Below, one piece after another: positions 3,568 to 52,995 of a stretch of DNA of 64,000 nucleotides. A model generated the notes under the pieces. It was not told the DNA's origin, made no database searches, and saw nothing but the letters and a program-made list of their open reading frames with translations. Origin of the DNA: Deltaproteobacteria bacterium (GTDB lineage Bacteria > Desulfobacterota > Desulfobacteria > Desulfobacterales > JAFDMD01); assembly GCA_019306065.1 (NCBI GenBank), contig JAFDMF010000007.1, positions 1-64,000 on the forward strand, given 5' to 3'. Position 1 is the first letter of the stretch, and each line of letters opens with the position of its first letter. The translations under genes were made by a program, and so were the position numbers.

Positions 3568-3600
3568 TTCCGCTTCCTTAATTTAATAAGAAAGCGGAAT
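3568..3600 (-). promoter_or_regulatory. Inverted repeat between dctP and dctQ (possible mRNA stem-loop)
   Basis: An imperfect hairpin TTCCGCTTCCTT / AAGAAAGCGGAA with an 8-base AT loop lies in the dctP-dctQ gap. In the sense (minus) direction no U-tract follows it, so a stabilising or processing stem-loop that lets the binding protein be made in excess is more likely than a full terminator. On the plus strand a T-run follows, so it could also end leftover rightward transcription. This is inference from sequence only. Confidence 0.35.
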
Positions 3601-3721
3601 TTTTTTTATTTCGGCGGGTTATATTCATTATGAGAATCGCTTGGTTGCCGTAAGTATTTCGAGGATTAAAATTTTTCTTCAACGCCGAAATTAAGCAAAA
3701 GAGGGCTTTTTTCTACGGAAA
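3601..3721. repeat. Partial copy of the dispersed intergenic palindromic repeat
   Basis: The stretch containing GTAAGTATTTCGAGGATTAAAATTT resembles the core of the 140 bp palindromic element described at 52837 (there AAAGTATTTCGAGGATTAAAATTTAAG). Only about half of the element is recognisable, so it looks like a decayed copy. Confidence 0.4.
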
Positions 3722-4822
3722 CTATTTATATCCCATGTATTGTTGCACTTCCAAAAGAAAATTTTCCGGTTTGTATGTATCTTCGGTATCTTTAGTCTTT
3801 TTAGGATAGATTTTATTTATTTGTTCCGCATATTTTTGATGAACTGCATCTCCTTTTTCTTTTAAAGCGGCAAGTTGCTCTTCCGGAAGCGATAAGAATT
3901 CTATTCCGTTTTCTTTTGCTTGATTTATCTGGACGATTTCCTGTTGTTTGGTTTTTTCTCTTATATCTTTACATACTTCCGAAACAACCTCTTTGAAGGT
4001 TTTTTGAAGATTCGGAGGCAGACTTTCAAACCATGCTTTGTTAAATATCCATATAAAAAGTCCTTGGGCATAGTTTAAATAGGTATAATATTTTGCCACC
4101 TCAAATTTTTTGGTAATATTGCAAACCGAAGGGGTATGATCAAGCCCTGTAATAACTCCTTGTTTTAAAGCCGTAGGAACGTCCGGCCATGGCATAACTA
4201 CCGGATTAAGATTCCATTGCGTATATAAAAGTTGATTTACTTCCGCTTCGGCAACTCTAAATTTTACCTTTTTTGCATCTTCTATTGATTTAATCGGCGT
4301 TGTAGTAGCCCATCCGTAGTTTCCGTATCCTGTAATATCAAGTCCTATTATTCCCTGATGCTCCATAGCTTGCATGTAATGATCGAATAGTTTGCCGCTG
4401 TTTACAAATTTATCAAGCTTTTCAAATGAATTAATTAAAAAAGGCAGATTGACAAGTCCAAATCGGGGACCTAAATTGGTAGCCGCAACCGAACTTACTC
4501 CCATACCTTGAATCGCTCCCATTTGAAGCATATTTAAAACTTCCACCTCTCCGCCAAGTATGCTCAACGGTTTATAATCAATATATATCTGACCGTTGGT
4601 TTTTTCCCAAAGCTTATCTCTTATGGCAAAGCCTGTGGAAACTCCAGTCAAAACAGGATGGGAAACATTGGAAACAATGCAGGTATATTTTGCTCCCGAA
4701 GGATCGAATTTCGGTTTCCATGTCTCTAATGGATTTGAATCTGCAGCAGTTGCAAAGGATGCGAAAAATATACAGCAAATAAAAGATATAGCCGTCATTA
4801 AAGATAATTTTTTCGCTTTCAT
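3722..4822 (-). CDS. dctP: TRAP transporter substrate-binding protein, DctP family
   Basis: Periplasmic solute receptor of the TRAP system, 366 residues. A clear Sec signal peptide is present (MKAK start, hydrophobic core, cleavage near FATA-ADS). The mature protein has the DctP-family segment VKFRVAE near residue 190; the Arg there usually clamps the substrate carboxylate, so an organic acid substrate is likely. The chain is full length. Because it sits between a carbamoyltransferase and the permeases, I infer that the substrate feeds the carbamoyl step, for example a ureido or carbamoyl-substituted acid. This is not proven by the sequence. Confidence 0.9.
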   Translation of the reverse strand: MKAKKLSLMTAISFICCIFFASFATAADSNPLETWKPKFDPSGAKYTCIVSNVSHPVLTGVSTGFAIRDKLWEKTNGQIYIDYKPLSILGGEVEVLNMLQMGAIQGMGVSSVAATNLGPRFGLVNLPFLINSFEKLDKFVNSGKLFDHYMQAMEHQGIIGLDITGYGNYGWATTTPIKSIEDAKKVKFRVAEAEVNQLLYTQWNLNPVVMPWPDVPTALKQGVITGLDHTPSVCNITKKFEVAKYYTYLNYAQGLFIWIFNKAWFESLPPNLQKTFKEVVSEVCKDIREKTKQQEIVQINQAKENGIEFLSLPEEQLAALKEKGDAVHQKYAEQINKIYPKKTKDTEDTYKPENFLLEVQQYMGYK

Positions 4823-6378: not shown

Positions 6379-7332
6379 TTATGGAGTTATTATTGTTCCG
6401 TAGCCGTTTTTTATGCCGGCGCTTAAATTTTCCGGCGAGGTAATAATAACCTTTTTTCCTCCGTTTTCTATAAAGTTTATTGCGGCTTCTATTTTAGGCA
6501 TCATACTACCTGCGGCAAAATGTCCTTCTTTTAGATATTTTTTTATTTGATGTAATTGAACATGCTCAAGCGGTTTTTCCTGTTTTTTGCGAAAATTAAT
6601 ATAAACATGGCTTATATCGGTAGAGATTATAAAAAGCTCCGCTTTTATTTCTGCGGCAAGCATTGAAGAGGTTAGGTCTTTATCCAATACGGCGTCAATC
6701 GGCTTTAAGCAGCCGTCCTCTTTTTTTATTACGGGTATTCCGCCGCCGCCGCATGCTATTACTATATAATTGTTTTTTATAAGATTTTTTATAGGGTCTA
6801 TCTCTATTATTCGGGCGGGCGCGGGCGATGCAACGATTCTTCTAAATCCTCTGCCGGAAGGGTCTTCGGCAAAGATCCAATCCCGATACCTCTTTTTTAA
6901 ATCTTCGGTCATTTCCGGCGTAAAAAAGGAGCCTATAGGTTTGGAAGGATTTAAAATTTTTTTATCCTTTTTATCTACCAATACTCTTGTAACTACTGTT
7001 GCGGTTTTTAAAGCTTCGCCTTTTAAGTTAAGCTGGTTTTCAAGAGCGGTTTGTATTTGAAATCCTATAGCTCCCTGTGTATCTGCAACGCAGCTTGAAA
7101 GCGGAACCTGATGCATTTTTGCATGCTCATAAGCTATTGCGGAGCGTCTTAAAATAAAGCCTACCTGAGGTCCGTTTCCGTGGCATATAACAAGTCTGTA
7201 ATTTTGTTTTACAATATCGGCAAGATGACGGCATGTTTCCATTAAAGATTGATATTGATCCTCTACGCTTGTATTTTGCGGATTGCGTATAAGAGAGTTG
7301 CCGCCTATTGCCGCGACTACTATTTTTTTCAT
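6379..7332 (-). CDS. arcC: Carbamate kinase
   Basis: Catalyses carbamoyl phosphate + ADP to carbamate + ATP. The 317-residue protein has the amino-acid-kinase fold motifs AIGGNSLI at the N-terminus, CHGNGPQVG near residue 50, the ADTQGAIGFQIQ segment and GGGGIPVI near residue 190, all typical of ArcC/YqeA. The start is supported by AGAGGA about 9 bases upstream of ATG. It is the first gene of the minus-strand set arcC-ygeW-dctPQM. No arcA (arginine deiminase) or arcB is seen, so this is not an ordinary arginine deiminase operon. A copy of the palindromic repeat directly abuts its 5' end. Confidence 0.94.
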   Translation of the reverse strand: MKKIVVAAIGGNSLIRNPQNTSVEDQYQSLMETCRHLADIVKQNYRLVICHGNGPQVGFILRRSAIAYEHAKMHQVPLSSCVADTQGAIGFQIQTALENQLNLKGEALKTATVVTRVLVDKKDKKILNPSKPIGSFFTPEMTEDLKKRYRDWIFAEDPSGRGFRRIVASPAPARIIEIDPIKNLIKNNYIVIACGGGGIPVIKKEDGCLKPIDAVLDKDLTSSMLAAEIKAELFIISTDISHVYINFRKKQEKPLEHVQLHQIKKYLKEGHFAAGSMMPKIEAAINFIENGGKKVIITSPENLSAGIKNGYGTIITP

Positions 7333-7348
7333 CTTATTTCCTCTGTTT

Positions 7349-7485
7349 AAATTTCGCCGTATAAATTTGTATTTTGCCCGTTTTAGGCGTTGGATAAAAA
7401 TTTTAATTCTCGCAACACTTTAAGTATTACTGCGGTTAAAATTTTTATCTGACTTGAACTCTACTTTGTTATCCGGCGGAATTTT
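7349..7485. repeat. Dispersed palindromic intergenic repeat, copy A
   Basis: Aligned by eye to copies at 12733, 13901 and (reverse strand) 52837. Shared blocks include TTTGCCCGTTTT, TGCGGTTAAAATTTTT and CTTTGTTATCCGGCG. Its left end lies 16 bp upstream of the arcC start, so it forms the arcC leader. Its right end reaches the 3' end of the CCA gene. The ends are complementary (AAATTTCGCCGTATAA against TTATCCGGCGGAATTT). Confidence 0.75.
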
Positions 7486-11467: not shown

Positions 11468-12751
11468 ATGTTAGACGTCAAAAATATAAGACAAAATTTT
11501 TCTTTAATTAAAAAAGGATTGGAAAACCGCAATGCGGATATTAACCTTGAAGAGCTTATTTTATCGGATGACAAACGAAAAGAGATTCTTTTTGAACTTG
11601 AAGAGCTCAGATATAAGCGAAATAGCGTATCTGACAAAATAGCGGAGTTAAAAAGAGCAAAAGCGGATGCCAATAGTCTTATTTTGGAAATGCGGGAAGT
11701 TTCGGCAAGAATTAAAACTTTGGAAAAGGATTTATCCGATACGGAAGCGGAGATTAATAAAAGGCTTATAGTTATTCCCAATATTCCCCATTCTTCCGCG
11801 CCGGTAGGAAAAAACGAGGCGGATAATAAGCTTGTAAAAAAGGAAGGGACGCCGAAAAATTTTGATTTTGAGCCGAAAGCCCATTGGGATATAGGAGAGG
11901 CTTTAAATATTTTGGATTTTGAAAGAGCGGCAAAAATAACAGGCGCAAGATTTCCTTTATATTACGGCGCAGGGGCAAGATTAGAAAGAGCCTTAATTAA
12001 CTTTATGTTAGATATTCATACAATCGAACATGGATATAAAGAGACGCTTCCTCCTTTTATAGTAAATAGAAACAGTATGACGGCAACAGGGCAGCTTCCG
12101 AAATTCGAAGAAGACCTTTTTAAAATTAAAGGAACCGATTATTTTCTTATTCCTACGGCGGAAGTTCCGGTAACCAACATTTATAATAACGAAATATTGG
12201 CAGAAGCAAATTTACCGATTTTACATACGGCATACACTCCTTGTTTTCGTTCCGAAGCGGGGGCTTACGGAAAGGATACGAGAGGACTTATAAGGCAGCA
12301 TCAGTTTAATAAAGTGGAGCTGGTAAAATTTGTAAAACCGGAAGATTCTTATGCCGAGTTAGAAACTCTTTTAAAAAATGCGGAAGAGATATTAAAAAGA
12401 TTAAAAATTCCTTACCGAGTTGTTACCCTTTGCACCGGAGATTTAGGGTTTTCCGCGGCAAAAACTTATGACATAGAAGTATGGATGCCAGCCCAAGGGG
12501 TTTACAGAGAAATATCTTCCTGCAGCAATTTCGAAGATTTTCAGGCAAGACGGGCAAATATAAGATTTAAAAGAGAAGGCAAAAAGAAAACCGAATTTAT
12601 TCATACCTTAAACGGCTCCGGGCTTGCGGTAGGAAGAACCTTTGCGGCAATACTTGAAAATTTTCAACAAGCAGACGGTTCCGTAACAATTCCGGAGGCG
12701 TTGGTCCCCTACATGAACGGCATTAAAAAAATCGGTTGCCTAACTTCGTAG
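11468..12751 (+). CDS. serS: Seryl-tRNA synthetase
   Basis: Class II synthetase charging tRNA-Ser. An N-terminal long coiled-coil tRNA-binding arm spans about residues 30-105. The catalytic core shows motif 2 ([21 protein letters not shown]) and motif 3 ([17 protein letters not shown]), followed by [14 protein letters not shown]. The ORF-track start at 11411 lies inside tRNA-Val; the ATG at 11468 ([11 protein letters not shown]) is the family-typical start and gives 427 residues. Unusually, the last codons (IGCLTS and the stop) fall inside a dispersed repeat copy that fills the space to ychF. Confidence 0.95.
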
Positions 12752-12874
12752 TTTGCCCGTTTGCGGCGTTGAAATTTTTTTTAATCCTCGAAATATTACA
12801 TATATTCCTGCGGTTAAAATTTTCGCAAGCCTTGAAAAAGAACAAACTACTTTTTTGCGTAACGGAATTATACG
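12733..12874. repeat. Dispersed palindromic intergenic repeat, copy D
   Basis: It contains GTAGTTTGCCCGTTT, AATCCTCGAAATATT, ATTCCTGCGGTTAAAATTTT, GCAAGCCTTGAAAA and GAACAAACTAC, aligning with the 13901 and reversed 52837 copies. It spans exactly the space between the convergent genes serS and ychF, and the serS stop codon TAG is part of it. Self-complementary ends (GTAGTTTG/CAAACTAC) would form a hairpin that might also serve as a terminator for both genes. Confidence 0.75.
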
Positions 12875-13887
12875 TTGAAACGGAAATTAATTATATCCCC
12901 GTCCGCCACAATATAAGTTTTTCCTTCAAGCCTTACTGTGCCGGCTTCTTTTGCTTTCGGATACCCGCCCGCTTTTATTAGATCGTTATAAGCGACAACT
13001 TCGGCGCGGATAAACCCTTTTTTAATATCCGAATGTATTACGTCCGCGGCGTCTAATGCGGATGTCCCTTTTTTTATAGTCCAAGCCCTAACCTCGTCTT
13101 TTCCTACGGTAAAAAAGGATATAAGACCAAGCAGATCGTAAGACTTTTTTATCACCCTATCCATAGCCAAATCGGATATGTTGAACTCTTTTAAAAATTC
13201 AAAAGCCTCTTTTTCCGGCATCTGCATTATTTCATGTTCTAATTTTCCTCTTAATACCATTGTGTCGTCATCTGTCTTCTCTGTAAAAGACGGAATATTT
13301 TCATCTTCATCGTCGTTGTTAAATAGTAAAAGTTTCGGCTTTGCGGTTAAAAAAGTAAAACCTCTTAATTGGCGAGCCGTTGCTATTTTCGTATTTTTTC
13401 GGATAGGTTTTTCCGCTTCCAAAAGTTGTAACGCCTCTTTTAATAAAGATAATTCCTGATTATCTATCTGCTTTCCTCTTTTTTTATCTGTGGCAATCCG
13501 TTCTATTCTTTTTTCTGCGGTAATAAAATCCGCAAGAGTCAATTCTTGTTCTAATGTTAAAACATCTTCGTAAGGGGATATTTTATCGTCTGCATAAGCT
13601 TTAAAATTTTTTATTACCTGAATAATAGCGTCGCAGTCTCTTATATTATTATATGCGGTATCCTTTTCCGTTGCGTTTTCCTGTTTTTTGGGAAGAAAAT
13701 ATTTAATCTGAGCATAAATGGTTTTTTGCGGTTCAAACATTGCGGATAATTTGTCTATTCTTTTATCCGGCACAGTTACGGTTTCTAACCTGTCTTCGTT
13801 TTTAAAACCGCTATCAAATTTTTTTGTAAGGGCTTCAAACACCGTTTTTTTGCCGGATAAAGGCAGTCCTATAATTCCGAGTTTCAT
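12868..13887 (-). CDS. ychF: YchF/OLA1-family Obg-like ATPase, divergent
   Basis: A TRAFAC-class P-loop NTPase of 339 residues. The Walker A segment is GLPLSGKKTVFEAL at residues 7-20 (GLPNVGKS in typical YchF). The middle part has a helical insertion with TLADFITAEKRIERI. The C-terminal TGS-like domain contains TVGKDEVRAWTIKKGTSALDAADVIHSDIKKGFIRAEV, which is diagnostic for YchF. The G-loop and nucleotide-specificity region (LLFNNDDED) differ from standard YchF, so this is a divergent paralogue. YchF proteins bind ATP and ribosomes and take part in stress responses. A repeat copy abuts its 5' end; RBS AGGGGG is present. Confidence 0.85.
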   Translation of the reverse strand: MKLGIIGLPLSGKKTVFEALTKKFDSGFKNEDRLETVTVPDKRIDKLSAMFEPQKTIYAQIKYFLPKKQENATEKDTAYNNIRDCDAIIQVIKNFKAYADDKISPYEDVLTLEQELTLADFITAEKRIERIATDKKRGKQIDNQELSLLKEALQLLEAEKPIRKNTKIATARQLRGFTFLTAKPKLLLFNNDDEDENIPSFTEKTDDDTMVLRGKLEHEIMQMPEKEAFEFLKEFNISDLAMDRVIKKSYDLLGLISFFTVGKDEVRAWTIKKGTSALDAADVIHSDIKKGFIRAEVVAYNDLIKAGGYPKAKEAGTVRLEGKTYIVADGDIINFRFNV

Positions 13888-13900
13888 ATTCCCCCTGTTT

Positions 13901-14045
13901 AAATTTTGCCGTATAATTTCGTAGTTTGCTCGTTTTCTGCGTTATGCTTAAATTTTAAACCGTTACTTATTATTAATAAGCCTGCGGTTAAAATTTTTGC
14001 ATGCCTTACAAACGAACAAACCACTTTGTTATCCGGCGAAATTTT
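13901..14045. repeat. Dispersed palindromic intergenic repeat, copy B
   Basis: It has complementary ends (AAATTTTGCCGTATAA against TTATCCGGCGAAATTT) and the shared internal blocks CGTTTTCTGCGTTATGCTTAAATTTTAA, CCTGCGGTTAAAATTTTTGCA and GAACAAACCACTTTGTTATCC. It ends 13 bp from the ychF start codon, as copy A does for arcC. The homology with copy A continues rightward to about 14090. Confidence 0.8.
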
Positions 14046-24208: not shown

Positions 24209-24394
24209 ATTCCCCTGCTGTGCCCGTGATTGCAGAATATATTTTGAACCAATATCATAATATTAGGGCAACTTCACTGGTTTTGGTGCGCAAGTTCCGA
24301 TTTTACGGAAAAGCCTAAAGAAGCTATAAGAACGCCCGCCTTTGAACACAAGGTTCAAAGAGTTCTCTCAACACGGCATTTATGCGGGGGAATC
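24209..24394 (+). ncRNA. ssrS: 6S RNA
   Basis: A 250 bp gap between zapA and rny holds a sequence whose ends pair: ATTCCCCTGCTGTGCCCGTG near 24210 against CACGGCATTTATGCGGGGGAAT near 24372-24392. It has a central unpaired region and an inner hairpin (TTTGAACACAAGGTTCAAAG). Length of about 185 nt and position downstream of zapA fit 6S RNA, the open-promoter mimic that binds sigma70-RNA polymerase. A T-rich stretch (CCTCTTTTTTTACC) follows and may end transcription. Boundaries are approximate. Confidence 0.75.
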
Positions 24395-26024: not shown

Positions 26025-26119
26025 AACCCGTTGCTACAGGAACTAATTGTTTTTTTAAAAGTTTGCTTTTACTTAATTTTAAGCGTTGGATAAAAGTCTT
26101 ACCCCCTCGAAATAATAAA

Positions 26120-26160
26120 GGGATTTTTCGCTTTGTTCGAAATTTAAACAAGGACGTAGA
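26120..26160. repeat. Partial copy of the TTTCTCGCTTTGCTCGAAAT repeat
   Basis: GGGATTTTTCGCTTTGTTCGAAAT resembles the cores at 29961, 51002 and 49796. Only one arm is present. It lies between rny and tyrS. Confidence 0.45.
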
Positions 26161-29793: not shown

Positions 29794-29996
29794 TTCGTTT
29801 CGCATTTTTTAATGCAAAACTTGTCAAAAATTATTTCATCCCGGATAATATCTGCTACGCAAATAAGCTTTGAACATATCAGAATCCAATATAAGCAGAT
29901 AAAAGCCCAATGACTAAAAATATTTTAGACACAAAAAAGGATGATTATGAAAACAATCAAGGGATTTCTCGCTTTGCTCGAAATGACATGAAAAAA
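29794..29996. repeat. Repeat-rich spacer before tRNA-Gln
   Basis: It holds one copy of CCAATGACTAA...TTTTAGACACAAAAAAGGATGATTAT (29907-29948; second copy at 46681-46717) and a GGGATTTCTCGCTTTGCTCGAAATGACA core (29961-29989). A segment TGCTACGCAAATAAGCTTTGAACATAT resembles 38882-38908. No gene is seen. Confidence 0.55.
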
Positions 29997-30070: not shown

Positions 30071-30282
30071 TTATCTTAAAAACGACTGCTCTTGGTTACA
30101 TAAAGGATTAAAAACAGTCAAGTAAAATTAATACCCCCGTCCTTTTATTTTGTGTGCCTTCTATTCTTTAGGCATAAAGTCCGCTTCATAACAAAGTTTT
30201 GTTCGATTTTAAGGCATCCGAAAATACCCGTTGCTCGACAAGACAGGATAAAACGAGCAAAGCGCGAAGTTATACGGCGGGC
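30071..30282. other. Spacer with degenerate repeat arms
   Basis: It contains CCGCTTCATAACAAAGTTTTGTTCGATTTTAAGGC, which resembles one arm of the 140 bp palindrome, and CGAGCAAAGCGCGAAG, which resembles the second repeat family. No gene is seen. Confidence 0.35.
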
Positions 30283-31098
30283 TTAAAATTTTAAAAAAGC
30301 TAATATACCTATAATCCAGCAGTAAGGAGCAAAATAGTAGAATTTTCCTTTGTTAACTATTTTCATAAGAAAAACAAGGGCTATATATCCTGATACAAAA
30401 GCGGCAAAAGAGCCTGCGGCAATCATTTTAAAAGGAAGCATCTGATAATTAAAATTTGTTAAGCTTACTATTTGCGCTCCCAGTATTGCGGGTATCGATA
30501 ATAAGAAAGAGAATTCAGCGCATACTTCCGGTTTTATTCCCAGAAAAAGTCCGGCGGATATTGTCGAGCCTGATCGTGAAATGCCTGGTATAACCGCAAG
30601 CCCTTGAGCGGTTCCTATTAAAAGCGCTTTTTTAAAACCAAATTTTTCAATATCGGACTTATTATTTTTAATATATTTTGTAAGCCATAATATAACTCCG
30701 GTTATTATTAACATTATGCCGGTTATTTTAACCGAGCCGAACAGCTTTTGAACTGTAGAGCCTAATAAAAGCCCTATAATAGCAGTTGGAACGGATGCCG
30801 CAATAATTAAAAGAAGAAGTTTTATATCCGATTCCTTTAAAGCTTGGGAAAGTTTGCGTTTAAAGATTAATTTTATAAGTTTAAAGAAGCTTTTTATAAG
30901 TTTGCGTATTTTAGGCATGAAAAATATGATAATAGCTATAAGAGTTCCGAAATGAAGCGCCGTGTCAAATATAAAATCCGAGTCGCCGGATGTTTGTAAA
31001 AGATTTTGAAATATTACAAGATGCCCGGAGCTGCTTATAGGCAAAAATTCGGTTAAGCCTTGAATTATGCCGAGTATAACGGCTTTTAGTAGGGTCAT
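30283..31098 (-). CDS. uppP: Undecaprenyl-diphosphatase UppP/BacA
   Basis: Recycles undecaprenyl pyrophosphate for peptidoglycan synthesis. The 271-residue membrane protein has the two family signatures: GIIQGLTEFLPISSSGHLV at residues 11-29, and GTAQGLAVIPGISRSGSTISAGL near residue 160. About eight membrane helices. Monocistronic, minus strand. Confidence 0.95.
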   Translation of the reverse strand: MTLLKAVILGIIQGLTEFLPISSSGHLVIFQNLLQTSGDSDFIFDTALHFGTLIAIIIFFMPKIRKLIKSFFKLIKLIFKRKLSQALKESDIKLLLLIIAASVPTAIIGLLLGSTVQKLFGSVKITGIMLIITGVILWLTKYIKNNKSDIEKFGFKKALLIGTAQGLAVIPGISRSGSTISAGLFLGIKPEVCAEFSFLLSIPAILGAQIVSLTNFNYQMLPFKMIAAGSFAAFVSGYIALVFLMKIVNKGKFYYFAPYCWIIGILAFLKF

Positions 31099-38802: not shown

Positions 38803-38933
38803 TTTTTCTCCGCTTAAAAATTTTTAAAATGGTTATATTTGGTTAAGAGATGTTCAAGTTTGTTTCCTCATCGATAAGAGCTGCTACGCAAAAAAATTTT
38901 GAACATCTTCGGCAAAGTTAATGCCATAAAAAA
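38803..38933. repeat. Short inverted repeat (AGATGTTCAA...TTGAACATCT)
   Basis: Arms at 38848-38857 and 38899-38908 are perfectly complementary and flank CTGCTACGCAAA. A similar right half lies at 29849-29878 and a left half near 47630. It separates the phosphatase gene from nnr and may work as a hairpin, but no T-run supports a terminator. Confidence 0.45.
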
Positions 38934-42028: not shown

Positions 42029-42339
42029 TATGTTTATAATCCCGTTGGGTTATATATTTTTTTTGCGTTTTAATTTTAGTTAAGTATGTTGCGGTTAATC
42101 AAGATACAAAGTTTATTTTTACAGGTCAATCTTTAATATTTTTGCAATGTCATAGACGGATAAAATGAAATTTATAAAAGGGTATCGGTTGACATTTTAA
42201 ATAAAGAATTATTATAAGAAAAGCTTCATAAAAATAATAAAATGATTTTTTGCTTTGCTTGACAAGATATGATGGCAGTTTTTTTGCCATGTAATGTCAA
42301 TATTAAAAAAAAATAATCACAAAAAAGGAAGGTAACGCA
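42029..42339. other. Intergenic region between purB and the DUF4395 gene
   Basis: It contains a good promoter candidate (42189-42218) and a decayed palindrome, TTTGCTTTGCTTGACA...GCAGTTTTTTTGCCATGTAATGTCA (42250-42299), of the second repeat family. No gene is seen. Confidence 0.5.
42189..42218 (+). promoter_or_regulatory. Putative sigma70 promoter for the DUF4395 gene
   Basis: A perfect -35 TTGACA followed after 17 bases by TTATAA (or after 18 by TATAAG). It points toward the gene 120 bp downstream. Confidence 0.5.
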
Positions 42340-43747: not shown

Positions 43748-44311
43748 TATATTTTCCCAAGTTAAGTTCTATATAAATCGCGTTTTCTATCGGGTTATTA
43801 TAATAAGGCGTTATTTTTTAAAATCCGAAAAAATTGTAAAGCTTAACCGCTTCTTTTAAGTTTGCAAAAGTATCAGGCCTCATAATTAAATAGCCTTTTT
43901 TAACGGCTATGTCAATTATAGAAGAAAAATACAAAGGAGGAAAGATACAAAGGAAGAGAAGGAAAGAAAGATACAAAGTTTTGTTCCGTTTTTTAATTAT
44001 TTCAGCGCGGATTATAACTATTACAGAGAGCATATTGCATTAAAAACCGATTTTCCCTTCAGCCTTTTGCATCTTTCCTCCTCTGTATCTTCGTATCTTT
44101 TCTCTTCCTCTTTTCCTGTTCTCCTTTGTATCTCTGTATTGACAAGCCAACCATCTCTTATTATATTAAGTCAAATTTTTCGGAAAAAAATAACAAAGAG
44201 ATTTATCGCTTCGCTTGACAGAACATTCGGCAATTTTTTTTGCCATTTCGGCAGGCGCAGAGCGGCGAGGAGAAATTTTTTAATTAAAATATAAACAAAG
44301 GAAACTATATT
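43748..44311. other. Divergent intergenic region with repeats and a possible gene relic
   Basis: It holds two purine/pyrimidine-rich stretches with recurrent GATACAAAG/CTTTGTATC units (43930-43985 and 44080-44140) and a copy of the second palindromic family (about 44200-44282: GAGATTTATCGCTTCGCTTGACAG ... GGCGCAGAGCGGCGAGGAGAAA). On the minus strand a coding-like tail, KKGYLIMRPDTFANLKEAVK, ends at 43818; it may be the end of a lost gene. The listed ORFs 43818-44033 and 44067-44294 are otherwise repeat sequence. Confidence 0.45.
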
Positions 44312-44638
44312 ATGGGAAAAGATATTATAGAAATAAACGACGACAACTTTGAAGCTGAAATTTTAAAGTCTGATAAGCCGGTTTTAGTGGATTTTTGGGC
44401 GCCTTGGTGCGGACCTTGCAGAGCAATAGGTCCTATAGTGGAAGAGCTTGCCGAAGTTTACGGAGATAAAGTAAAATTTGCCAAATGCAACGTTGACGAC
44501 AGCCCAATAACCCCTTCAAAATACGGAATTCAAGCAATTCCTACCTTAATATTTTTTAAAGACGGAAAAAATGATTTGCCTATTACCGGAGTTGTTCCGA
44601 AAACCGAGTTAGAAAACAAGATAAAAGAGTTGTTATAG
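44312..44638 (+). CDS. trxA: Thioredoxin
   Basis: 108 residues with the WAPWCGPCRAIGP active site (Cys33 and Cys36), DFWAPW strand and the cis-Pro segment QAIPTLIFF. Reduces protein disulfides using electrons from TrxB, whose gene follows 10 bp downstream. GGAAAC near -12. First gene of the trxA-trxB-bamD-rpmB set. Confidence 0.95.
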   Translation: MGKDIIEINDDNFEAEILKSDKPVLVDFWAPWCGPCRAIGPIVEELAEVYGDKVKFAKCNVDDSPITPSKYGIQAIPTLIFFKDGKNDLPITGVVPKTELENKIKELL

Positions 44639-46269: not shown

Positions 46270-46464
46270 ATGTCAAAAGAATGCGCAATATGCGGTAAAA
46301 AACATAAATCCGGCAATAACGTAAGCCACGCTCATAATATAACAAAACGCCGTTTTAATCCGAATTTGCAAAGCGTTAAAGCCCGCTTGGATAACGGGCA
46401 GGTAAAAAAAATATTAGCCTGCACAAACTGTATAAAGTCCGGCAGGGTTATAAAATCTGTATAA
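46270..46464 (+). CDS. rpmB: Ribosomal protein L28
   Basis: 64 residues: [34 protein letters not shown], then [12 protein letters not shown]. The two CxxC pairs make this the zinc-binding form. Length is standard. It ends the operon before a strong terminator. Confidence 0.95.
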
Positions 46465-46466
46465 CA

Positions 46467-46508
46467 AAAAGCTTTGCATAACTTTGTATTTTGTTATGCA
46501 AAGCTTTT
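46467..46508 (+). terminator. Rho-independent terminator after rpmB
   Basis: A perfect 16 bp stem, AAAAGCTTTGCATAAC / GTTATGCAAAGCTTTT, with a 10-base loop, starts 2 bp after the rpmB stop. The TTTT at the stem end serves as the U-tract. It could act in both directions. Confidence 0.8.
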
Positions 46509-46787
46509 AATCGAATTATAAACAAAAGATATAGACGCAAAAAGGAATGATTGTTAAAATATTCCGTACCTAACGGCGCGAAGGATTTTTTTCTATAAAT
46601 ATTTAAGCCCTAACTGGGTTTGTAATATTAGGCTAATTTAAAAGTCCCGTAAGGGCGAAATATTATAAACATAAGAAACGCCAATGACTAATATTAGACA
46701 CAACAAGGGATGATTATAAAAAAGTATTTCGAGAATTACAATTTATTTGACGCAGAAATTGAGCAAAGGAAACATTTTTTATCAAAA
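46509..46787. repeat. Repeat-bearing spacer between rpmB and truA
   Basis: It contains CCAATGACTAATATTAGACACAACAAGGGATGATTAT (46681-46717), a second copy of the element at 29907, and TATTTCGAGAATTACAATTTATTTGACGCAGAAATTGAGCAAA, which resembles a decayed arm of the 140 bp family. No gene is seen. Confidence 0.45.
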
Positions 46788-47528: not shown

Positions 47529-47781
47529 TCGCATTATAATTTTTATTATCAATTTTTTTTTGTTTATATTCTTGTTATGAGATTTCTCCTCGCTTCGTTC
47601 GTCGATCTGTTTATATTCGGTTTTTGGAGATATTCAAGTTTGTTTTGCTCCGCTTTTTGCTTATCGCTTCGGATTTCTGACTGCGTTTTACGCAAAATAT
47701 GAAAACTTGAGCTATGCTCTCAAATCATATCTTGCGATTAAAAACCGTGTTTCTTTATCCCTTTGCCTCTTTGTATCTCTG
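47529..47781. other. Spacer between uvrC and truA with repeat fragments
   Basis: It contains GAGATTTCTCCTCGCTTCGTTCGTCGA (second palindromic family), a GATATTCAAGTTTG arm like that at 38848, and a CTTTGCCTCTTTGTATCTCTGTTAC stretch of the GATACAAAG type. No independent gene. Confidence 0.45.
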
Positions 47782-49683: not shown

Positions 49684-49825
49684 GTGTTTAACTATCTTTA
49701 ATAGCGGATGTTTCCTGTGTTTATATTCTTATTATGAGATTTTTTTTCGTTACGCTCGTTGACATCACACGATAAAAAAATTTTCTTTCTGTCATTTTGA
49801 GCAAAGCGAGAAATCCCTTGATTAT
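49684..49825. repeat. Repeat cluster upstream of uvrC
   Basis: GTGTTTAACTATCTTTAATAGCGGATGTTTCCT (49684-49716) repeats the segment at 7499 and 14059. It is followed by an inverted pair GAGATTTTTTTTCGTTACGCTCGTTGACA and TGTCATTTTGAGCAAAGCGAGAAATC (49736-49816) of the second palindromic family. Confidence 0.55.
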
Positions 49826-49848
49826 TTCCTTTGCCTCTGTCCCCCTAT

Positions 49849-50875: not shown

Positions 50876-51001
50876 TTTTTTTCTCCTTTTAATTTATAAT
50901 TAAGATAGAAGCCATATCGTATCAGCTTGTATTGTGCGATTTTTGTAAACTCGTATGAAATAACTCACTGTGTCCCCCATTGAAAAGGGTGAAATAATAA
51001 A

Positions 51002-51109
51002 GGAATTTCTCGCTTTGCTCGAAATGACAAATTTTTTATTTGGGCAGATGTTTTATCAAAAAGCCTTTTTTCGCTATGTCATTTCGACGAGCGCAGCGAG
51101 GAGAAATCT
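51002..51109. repeat. Palindromic intergenic repeat, second family (full copy)
   Basis: GGAATTTCTCGCTTTGCTCGAAATGACA at 51002-51029 and TGTCATTTCGACGAGCGCAGCGAGGAGAAATC near 51077-51108 form inverted ends around a 47 bp centre. Single or degenerate arms occur at 26120, 29961, 42250, 44200, 47580 and 49736. This is the clearest complete copy. Confidence 0.65.
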
Positions 51110-51166
51110 CATAATGAAAATATAACGATACGAAATAAACGGATATATATGTAAAGTCAATATGAT

Positions 51167-52607: not shown

Positions 52608-52836
52608 TCAATCCTCCGTTAATCTTATTATAAGGATTATTTACAAAAAGTTTCCATTATATTAATTGAAAACTCTCGTCAAGTTATATTATCGTTAAGA
52701 GAGGATGAGAGATACAACGGAGGAGAGTAATATTTATAAAAAAAGGCTTGCGAGTTATGATTATATGCTTTAAGGTTTAACAAAAATAAGCCTTTTAAGC
52801 GTTGGATAAAAATTTTAATCACAAAAAAGAATGATG

Positions 52837-52979
52837 AAAGTTTGCGGGATAACAAAGCGGTTTGTTCGTTTTCAAGGCTTGCAAAAATTTTAACCGCAGG
52901 AATACTAAAGTATTTCGAGGATTAAAATTTAAGCATAACGCAGAAAACGGGCAAACCGCTTTGTTATCCTGCAAACTTT
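52837..52979. repeat. Dispersed palindromic intergenic repeat, copy C (best preserved)
   Basis: The ends form a 28 bp inverted repeat with one mismatch: AAAGTTTGCGGGATAACAAA at 52837 (continuing GCGGTTTG) against CAAACCGCTTTGTTATCCTG (continuing CAAACTTT) up to 52979. Inner parts are also complementary down to a central AATACTAAAGTATT, so the 143 nt would fold into one long hairpin. Read on the minus strand it aligns with copies A, B and D. Its right end lies 16 bp before the HAD gene start. Confidence 0.85.
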
Positions 52980-52995
52980 AAATATAGGAAAAGAT

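Follow-up and report, generated by a model that had tools for sequence, protein, structure and literature searches.

The imperfect palindrome at positions 52837-52982 (plus strand) of the DNA analysed here, a stretch of 64,000 nucleotides called the window, belongs to a MITE family of unusual build, which combines a structured core, exchangeable ends, a spread across the phylum and, in one genus, a rule of placement at gene edges. The best explanation, in which we place considerable confidence, is that of a structured core with IS-type ends that would be moved in trans, would exchange its ends on rare occasions and would have become fixed at gene edges in the window's genus. A first reading made from the letters of the window alone (hereafter the sequence-only reading) had described a palindromic family of about 140 bp with at least four good copies. 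The family is confirmed and turns out to be much larger than described.

The hairpin and its copies

The copy taken as reference scores 172 bits with our covariance model, and is followed, 13 nt beyond its right end, by the ATG (52996) of a HAD-family gene. Its terminal stem pairs a left arm of 37 nt (52837-52873) with a right arm (52943-52979) to which it is 92% complementary; the outer 28 bp of this stem are the terminal inverted repeats with one mismatch previously noticed. Between the arms, the inner part of the conserved core (52874-52942) reads AAGGC..AATTTTAACCGCAGGAATAC..GTATTTCGAGGATTAAAATTT..CATAACGC and includes a conserved asymmetric internal loop. The three other good copies, announced at 7349, 12733 and 13901 in the opposite orientation, are indeed all on the minus strand, with 102-150 bits. 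The copy at 13898-14044 (150 bits) has its right end 10 nt upstream of the start of ychF (12868-13887, minus), and the one at 7346-7484 (102 bits) ends 13 nt upstream of the start of an amino-acid kinase gene, arcC (6379-7332, minus). The vicinity to a start codon proposed for three of the four copies is thus borne out, the ATG following the element after 10-13 nt. The fourth (12725-12870, minus, 105 bits) fills the convergent gap between serS, which ends at 12751, and ychF, which ends at 12868, and holds both stop codons rather than preceding a start. Gene starts and positions throughout this work come from our own hexamer-based gene caller.

Decayed copies had been suspected near 30180, 3601 and 46720. 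The first is clear (30176-30288, plus, 51 bits): it lacks part of the core and overlaps the stop of the converging bacA (30283-31098, minus). The second is weak (3580-3726, plus, 22 bits, E 0.02), its right half being plain by eye with a AGTTTCCGTAGAAAA-type end. The third stands only as a right-half fragment, AAGTATTTCGAGAATTACAATTTATTTGACGCAGAAATTGAGCAAAG, readable by eye at about 46722-46768 (plus) and missed by the covariance model. The window also contains a core-less terminal hairpin at 46463-46509 (minus, 32 bits), AAAGCTTTGCATAAC...GTTATGCAAAGCTTT.

In the genome from which the window was taken (G000; 1.97 Mb in 47 contigs), blastn returned 51 matches, the best other copies being 81-93% identical. 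The covariance-model search of the whole genome that had been suggested as a check, with a model built from 28 copies, gave 129 rows with E-values down to 2e-34. Since the palindrome also matches the reverse strand, these rows collapse to about 80 loci. The elements are short, about 142-147 bp, with paired ends in every class, and a typical copy contains no called gene. Two pairs stand head to tail in tandem (G000:C37:2166-2458 and G000:C5:649-945; L191 and L202).

The core is not limited to this genome. Within the order, 38 of the 58 genomes searched matched the covariance model, almost every one from a different family; under stricter filters, so did 62 of 395 genomes across the phylum. Its exact pattern occurs in at least 113 stretches of the named genome collection; among the matches listed, those with names are MAGs of Desulfobacterales, Desulfobacteraceae and "Deltaproteobacteria", apart from a few assigned just to Proteobacteria or Pseudomonadota. 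A search of plasmids, phages and viral contigs gave no match. Rfam contains no family above its gathering threshold for the element, which drew just generic sub-threshold hairpin matches, and the core was not described in the publications that we searched by sequence and by topic. To judge from Rfam and these publications, the hairpin family seems undescribed.

Other features of the window deserve a mention. A second dispersed repeat, AAATAATAAAGGGATTTCTCGCTTTGCTCGAAATGACA, is found in both orientations with 74-92% identity at 26110-26147, 29951-29988, 42232-42269, 44188-44225, 49790-49828 and 50991-51029. A third repeat, GCGAGGAGAAATCTCATAATGAAAATATAAACAAAGGAAA, is intergenic and likewise has a Shine-Dalgarno-like stretch at its end; it lies at 44265-44313, 47564-47605, 49711-49762 and 51084-51125. 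A fourth, with GCTACGCAAATAAGCTTTGAACAT, occupies 29822-29877 and 38851-38906 and is also found near elements elsewhere in G000. The Rfam search placed a 6S RNA at 24209-24394 (90.5 bits).

Terminal repeats, target duplications and insertion sequences

Outside the window's genus, one conserved core is associated with different ends, which form at least four classes of terminal inverted repeats (TIRs). In these other genera, a perfect target duplication of 5 bp was counted in 22 of 34 cases for the GAGACC class, against 0.7 expected from shuffled flanks. Duplications of 4 bp were counted, again relative to shuffled flanks, in 7 of 11 cases for GAGCCA (0.7 expected), 6 of 12 for AGTGTCC (0.9 expected) and 8 of 9 for AGTGCCC (2.0 expected). 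Rarer ends, with few copies each, include GGGTATCTCTAAAAATTGC, GAGGCTGTGTCACAAATG, GGCTGTTACAAAATGG, AGTTCC..GTAGAAA and AGGGTGTCTTGAAAAATT. Whatever the TIR class, the total length is typically near 142-147 bp. The proposed search for flanking duplications therefore had a divided outcome, positive for four TIR classes in other genera and negative in the own genome, where none was found around start-facing copies and the likeness of left and right flanks was 7.59 versus 7.585 in shuffled sequence. A duplication of the Shine-Dalgarno region upon insertion, suspected from one pair of filled and empty sites, was dropped on the same figures.

Two intact IS from relatives carry such ends. The first (L238, genome G023) is 1,677 bp long, with AGTGTCC ends and a 4-bp AGAT duplication; its transposase frame of about 470 codons scores 443 bits with ISNCY (cut-off 325), and its right end agrees with the AGTGTCC class over the first 11 or so bases only. 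The second (L268, genome G003) measures 1,289 bp; its ends are GGGTTTCTCTAATAATTGCC / GGGCACCTCTAAAAATCAC, its duplication is TTAA and its transposase reaches 281 bits with IS5 (cut-off 140). A MITE copy of the same genome (L076) has a GGGTATCTCTAAAAATTGC end. For the GAGACC class, the ends match those published for ISNme1, an IS5-family element of Neisseria, GAGACCTTTGCAAAA (PMC4596501), and the link of this class to an IS rests on that Neisseria element. Judging from these matches, at least two IS families would supply ends for one core. Given that two TIR types match ISNCY and IS5 elements and that GAGACC matches ISNme1, the one core would have used several transposase families.

Pairing of TIR matches in eight genomes found no IS with exact GAGACC ends; the candidate pairs turned out to be neighbouring MITEs or a core-less hairpin. 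The gene beside an apparent end at L083 did not resemble a transposase, and the abundant DDE transposon of genome G051 was set aside because its CAGTAGTGTCCGG ends are related but not matching. In G000, profile searches with DDE_Tnp_1 and DUF772 gave no match, and the window's genus contains no intact IS partner among the transposase families tested. The sharing of ends with an IS that is expected of a MITE is thus found in relatives (ISNCY for L238, IS5 for L268) and not inside the own genome. The element family is probably now immobile in the window's genus. Altogether, the TIRs, the class-specific target duplications, the high intergenic copy number, the lack of coding capacity and the TIRs common to intact IS in relatives support the MITE reading that the form of the repeat had suggested.

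We also asked how often the ends have changed. When the TIR classes were mapped on a tree of the core (106 columns, weak support, few supported branches), 4 changes were counted, 3 being the minimum. TIR class follows the core tree, and frequent end swapping was rejected; the exchange of ends is, as far as this tree allows one to read it, a rare event that is then inherited.

Hairpins of about 36-47 bp with nothing but the two ends are present in other genomes (L263, L114, L084 and L278), and one of them, L263, has a CTGAT duplication. Another lies in G000, at an orthologous site where a sister species has the full element. This suggests that core-less forms could have arisen by loss of the core across the hairpin.

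Gene-edge position and complementary arms

In the window's genus, the two ends of the element behave differently. We call an end tight when a start is no more than 20 bp away or a stop no more than 6 bp, overlaps being counted as well. Right ends are tight to a gene in 62 of 82 cases in G000 and 49 of 56 in the sister genomes G001 and G002 (111/138 in total), against 13 of 81 and 3 of 54, respectively, for left ends (16/135). Uniform placement in the same intergenic gaps would give 26.8 +/- 3.8 tight right ends, where 106 of 130 are observed, with 15 for left ends. About half of the right ends face a start and half a stop. Where a copy faces a stop, the codon is usually found 1-6 or 18 bp within the element, which therefore supplies the gene's stop. 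The constant position reported by the sequence-only reading is thus real and genus-wide, except that about half of the copies abut a stop and not a start. The gene-edge rule was rejected for other genera (right 13/64, left 2/64).

For many copies, G001 or G002 has an element at the orthologous site, beside neighbouring proteins that are about 73-95% identical; the HAD and arcC sites of the window are among those occupied in sister species. One site that is empty in G002 is filled in G000 (L336 versus L197), and this start site, the one clear comparison of its kind, points to an insertion that cost little of the DNA around it. A conserved left flank, RTTATTAAAAAAATTTAATCACAAAAAAGAATGATG, precedes the reference copy (52793-52836) and many others, mainly start-facing ones, and could be a promoter, an extra module or an older repeat. 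One gene is flanked on each side by an element with its right end towards the gene, and this holds in both species (L310 in G001, 1998-2871; L220 in G000, 1015-1600). Several contigs of G001 and G002 stop shortly past an element, and near-identical copies probably break these assemblies.

The pairing of the two arms is maintained as the sequence changes. Two-sided compensatory changes are seen in 26 of 46 pairs; 92.2% of the cells are paired versus 81.3% in shuffles, and 144 cells are changed on both sides versus 48.8. None of 500 shuffles reached the observed covariation by any of the three measures, and sliding the partner column by one base reduced pairing to only 41-46%. Neither an absence of further copies nor alignments resembling shuffled sequence, the two outcomes that would have spoken against the family, was thus encountered. 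In seven orthologous pairs of elements, 52 base pairs were changed on both sides, 49 of them being still paired, and 36 on one side.

Read in one orientation, the element consists of the outer stem, an ACAAAG segment, the stem TTTGTTCGTTTT/AAAACGGGCAAA, AAGGC..AATTTTAACCGCAGGAATAC, a small loop and GTATTTCGAGGATTAAAATTT..CATAACGC. The outer stem is the most variable part, with 65% column identity, yet it is 84% paired. The asymmetric internal-loop bases (GCAGG on one side, TCGA and a bulged A on the other) are 86-100% conserved, above the paired outer stem, so that the structure is not merely evolving towards a perfect palindrome. The stem TTTGTTCGTTTT/AAAACGGGCAAA has two conserved U-G positions, read on the forward strand. 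Extra segments lie within one arm at L104, L151, L170, L095, L080, L125 and L147. One such segment, CCTGCCCAGTTAAATCCGTATTTTATATTTAACCGGGG, occurs at three loci; another, CGAAGTCTCCGCTTATCTG, is in the left arm of some copies and, as a near complement, in the right arm of another.

What keeps the arms complementary could be a DNA process only, arm-to-arm correction or gene conversion, without any function, the gene-edge position then reflecting one-sided loss of DNA beside the right end or a target preference. Mismatches without strand bias would fit this idea, as would the core-less hairpins, which resemble precise loss across the hairpin, and the inner variants of orthologous copies, which differ block-wise on both arms as if exchanged. 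These block-wise differences suggest that, besides selection, copying from one arm to the other or recombination among copies is at work. Orthologous copies may have been partly overwritten by recombination with other copies, so that two-sided change is no proof of selection on each copy. However, correction of the arms should erase the asymmetric loops, which are nearly invariant, and the one clear filled and empty start site shows little flanking loss. We regard a DNA process acting by itself as possible, although short of probable.

Alternatively, the element could act as a structured RNA, either a leader or a terminator hairpin working in cis, with selection on its RNA fold. Supporting this idea, right ends lie a few bases before starts or overlap stops throughout the genus, changes at orthologous sites are two-sided, U-G pairs are kept at two core positions on the forward strand and the internal-loop bases hardly vary. 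Selection on an RNA should favour G-U over A-C on the transcribed strand. However, the two mismatches are equally frequent, with 108 G-U versus 103 A-C in start-facing copies and 89 versus 80 in stop-facing ones, and a strand-specific leader RNA is thus not supported as the reason for the pairing. Moreover, the element stands in both orientations relative to transcription, no gene-edge rule holds outside the genus (13/64) and Rfam has no such family. We consequently find selection on an RNA fold rather doubtful. Transcription as a leader hairpin, which the sequence-only reading had inferred from the constant position, loses its support with the equally common stop-facing copies and the mismatches without RNA-strand bias.

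It is very improbable that we are dealing with a REPIN-like element moved by a Y1 (RAYT) transposase. High-copy intergenic hairpins would be expected of such a system and G000 has a single Y1_Tnp match (G000:C14:96579-96902, L347), but this match is interrupted by one TAA stop codon, and target duplications with inverted ends fit DDE transposases and not Y1. Finally, chance similarity of AT-rich palindromes, which the 34% G+C of the window might bring to mind, is refuted by the E-values, by a covariation that no shuffle attains and by the presence of the core in dozens of families.

A persistent core and its relation to known systems

The long quasi-palindrome combines an inner core, conserved and with asymmetric loops that hardly vary, with outer ends of about 14-20 bp that copy the TIRs of resident IS. 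We propose that each of these IS (ISNCY and IS5 in the two cases at hand) would provide in trans a transposase that recognises such ends, moves the element and leaves its own typical duplication. In rare events, the core would gain a new pair of ends and thereby change transposase. In a single hairpin, the second arm could follow a change in the first, either by copying or by selection for a match, and the arms would stay complementary. In the window's genus, the family has grown to about 80 copies, now probably immobile and inherited at fixed sites. There, the right end stays flush against the starts or stops of genes, and mRNAs would carry the hairpin at their 5' or 3' edge; once transcribed, it may affect mRNA ends.

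MITEs are usually read as remnants of one IS with an internal deletion. Here, one interior carries the ends of different IS families, with their own duplication lengths; what seems to persist is therefore the interior, while the ends would be replaceable. A bolder view, which we put forward tentatively, would be that of a selfish core, spread through the phylum and tied to no single transposon, that switches ends to the available IS by arm copying and that, in at least one lineage, has become a standard hairpin at the edges of dozens of genes. The way in which a non-autonomous element changes transposase becomes testable, and the gene-edge rule with its orthologous sites provides a natural experiment on mobile hairpins becoming fixed parts of transcripts.

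Parallels can be drawn with several known systems. REPINs are also dispersed extragenic hairpins, but need a Y1 transposase, of which G000 has only a broken one. The attC sites of integrons are imperfect palindromes adjoining gene ends with conserved unpaired bases, as are the present elements; the latter differ in being dispersed in both orientations, in having moved with target duplications and in forming no cassette array. The Correia end is absent from the present TIR classes (GAGACC, GAGCCA, AGTGTCC, AGTGCCC and others). Correia/NEMIS elements are likewise intergenic MITEs near genes with long complementary ends, and their transcripts are cut by RNase III (PMC10969869). They differ by other TIRs and another target duplication.

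ERIC elements resemble the family in length, imperfect palindromy, intergenic location, lineage-wide presence and high copy number (PMC10969869). The earlier likening to ERIC holds as an analogy and goes no further: there is no sequence similarity (blastn against 5,426 genomes of E. coli, a carrier of ERIC, gave no match), the hosts are others, and several TIR classes with duplications belong to the present family. The IS5-derived MITEs (such as BrickBuilt and MITE464/PgRS of P. gingivalis and ATR of Neisseria) are also short, non-coding and intergenic, with IS-like TIRs. The ends of ISNme1 and of BrickBuilt, GAGACCTTTGCA(AAA) (PMC4596501), resemble the GAGACC class described here. However, those MITEs have similar ends and unrelated interiors, whereas the present family has a single interior that bears the ends of different IS families across a phylum.
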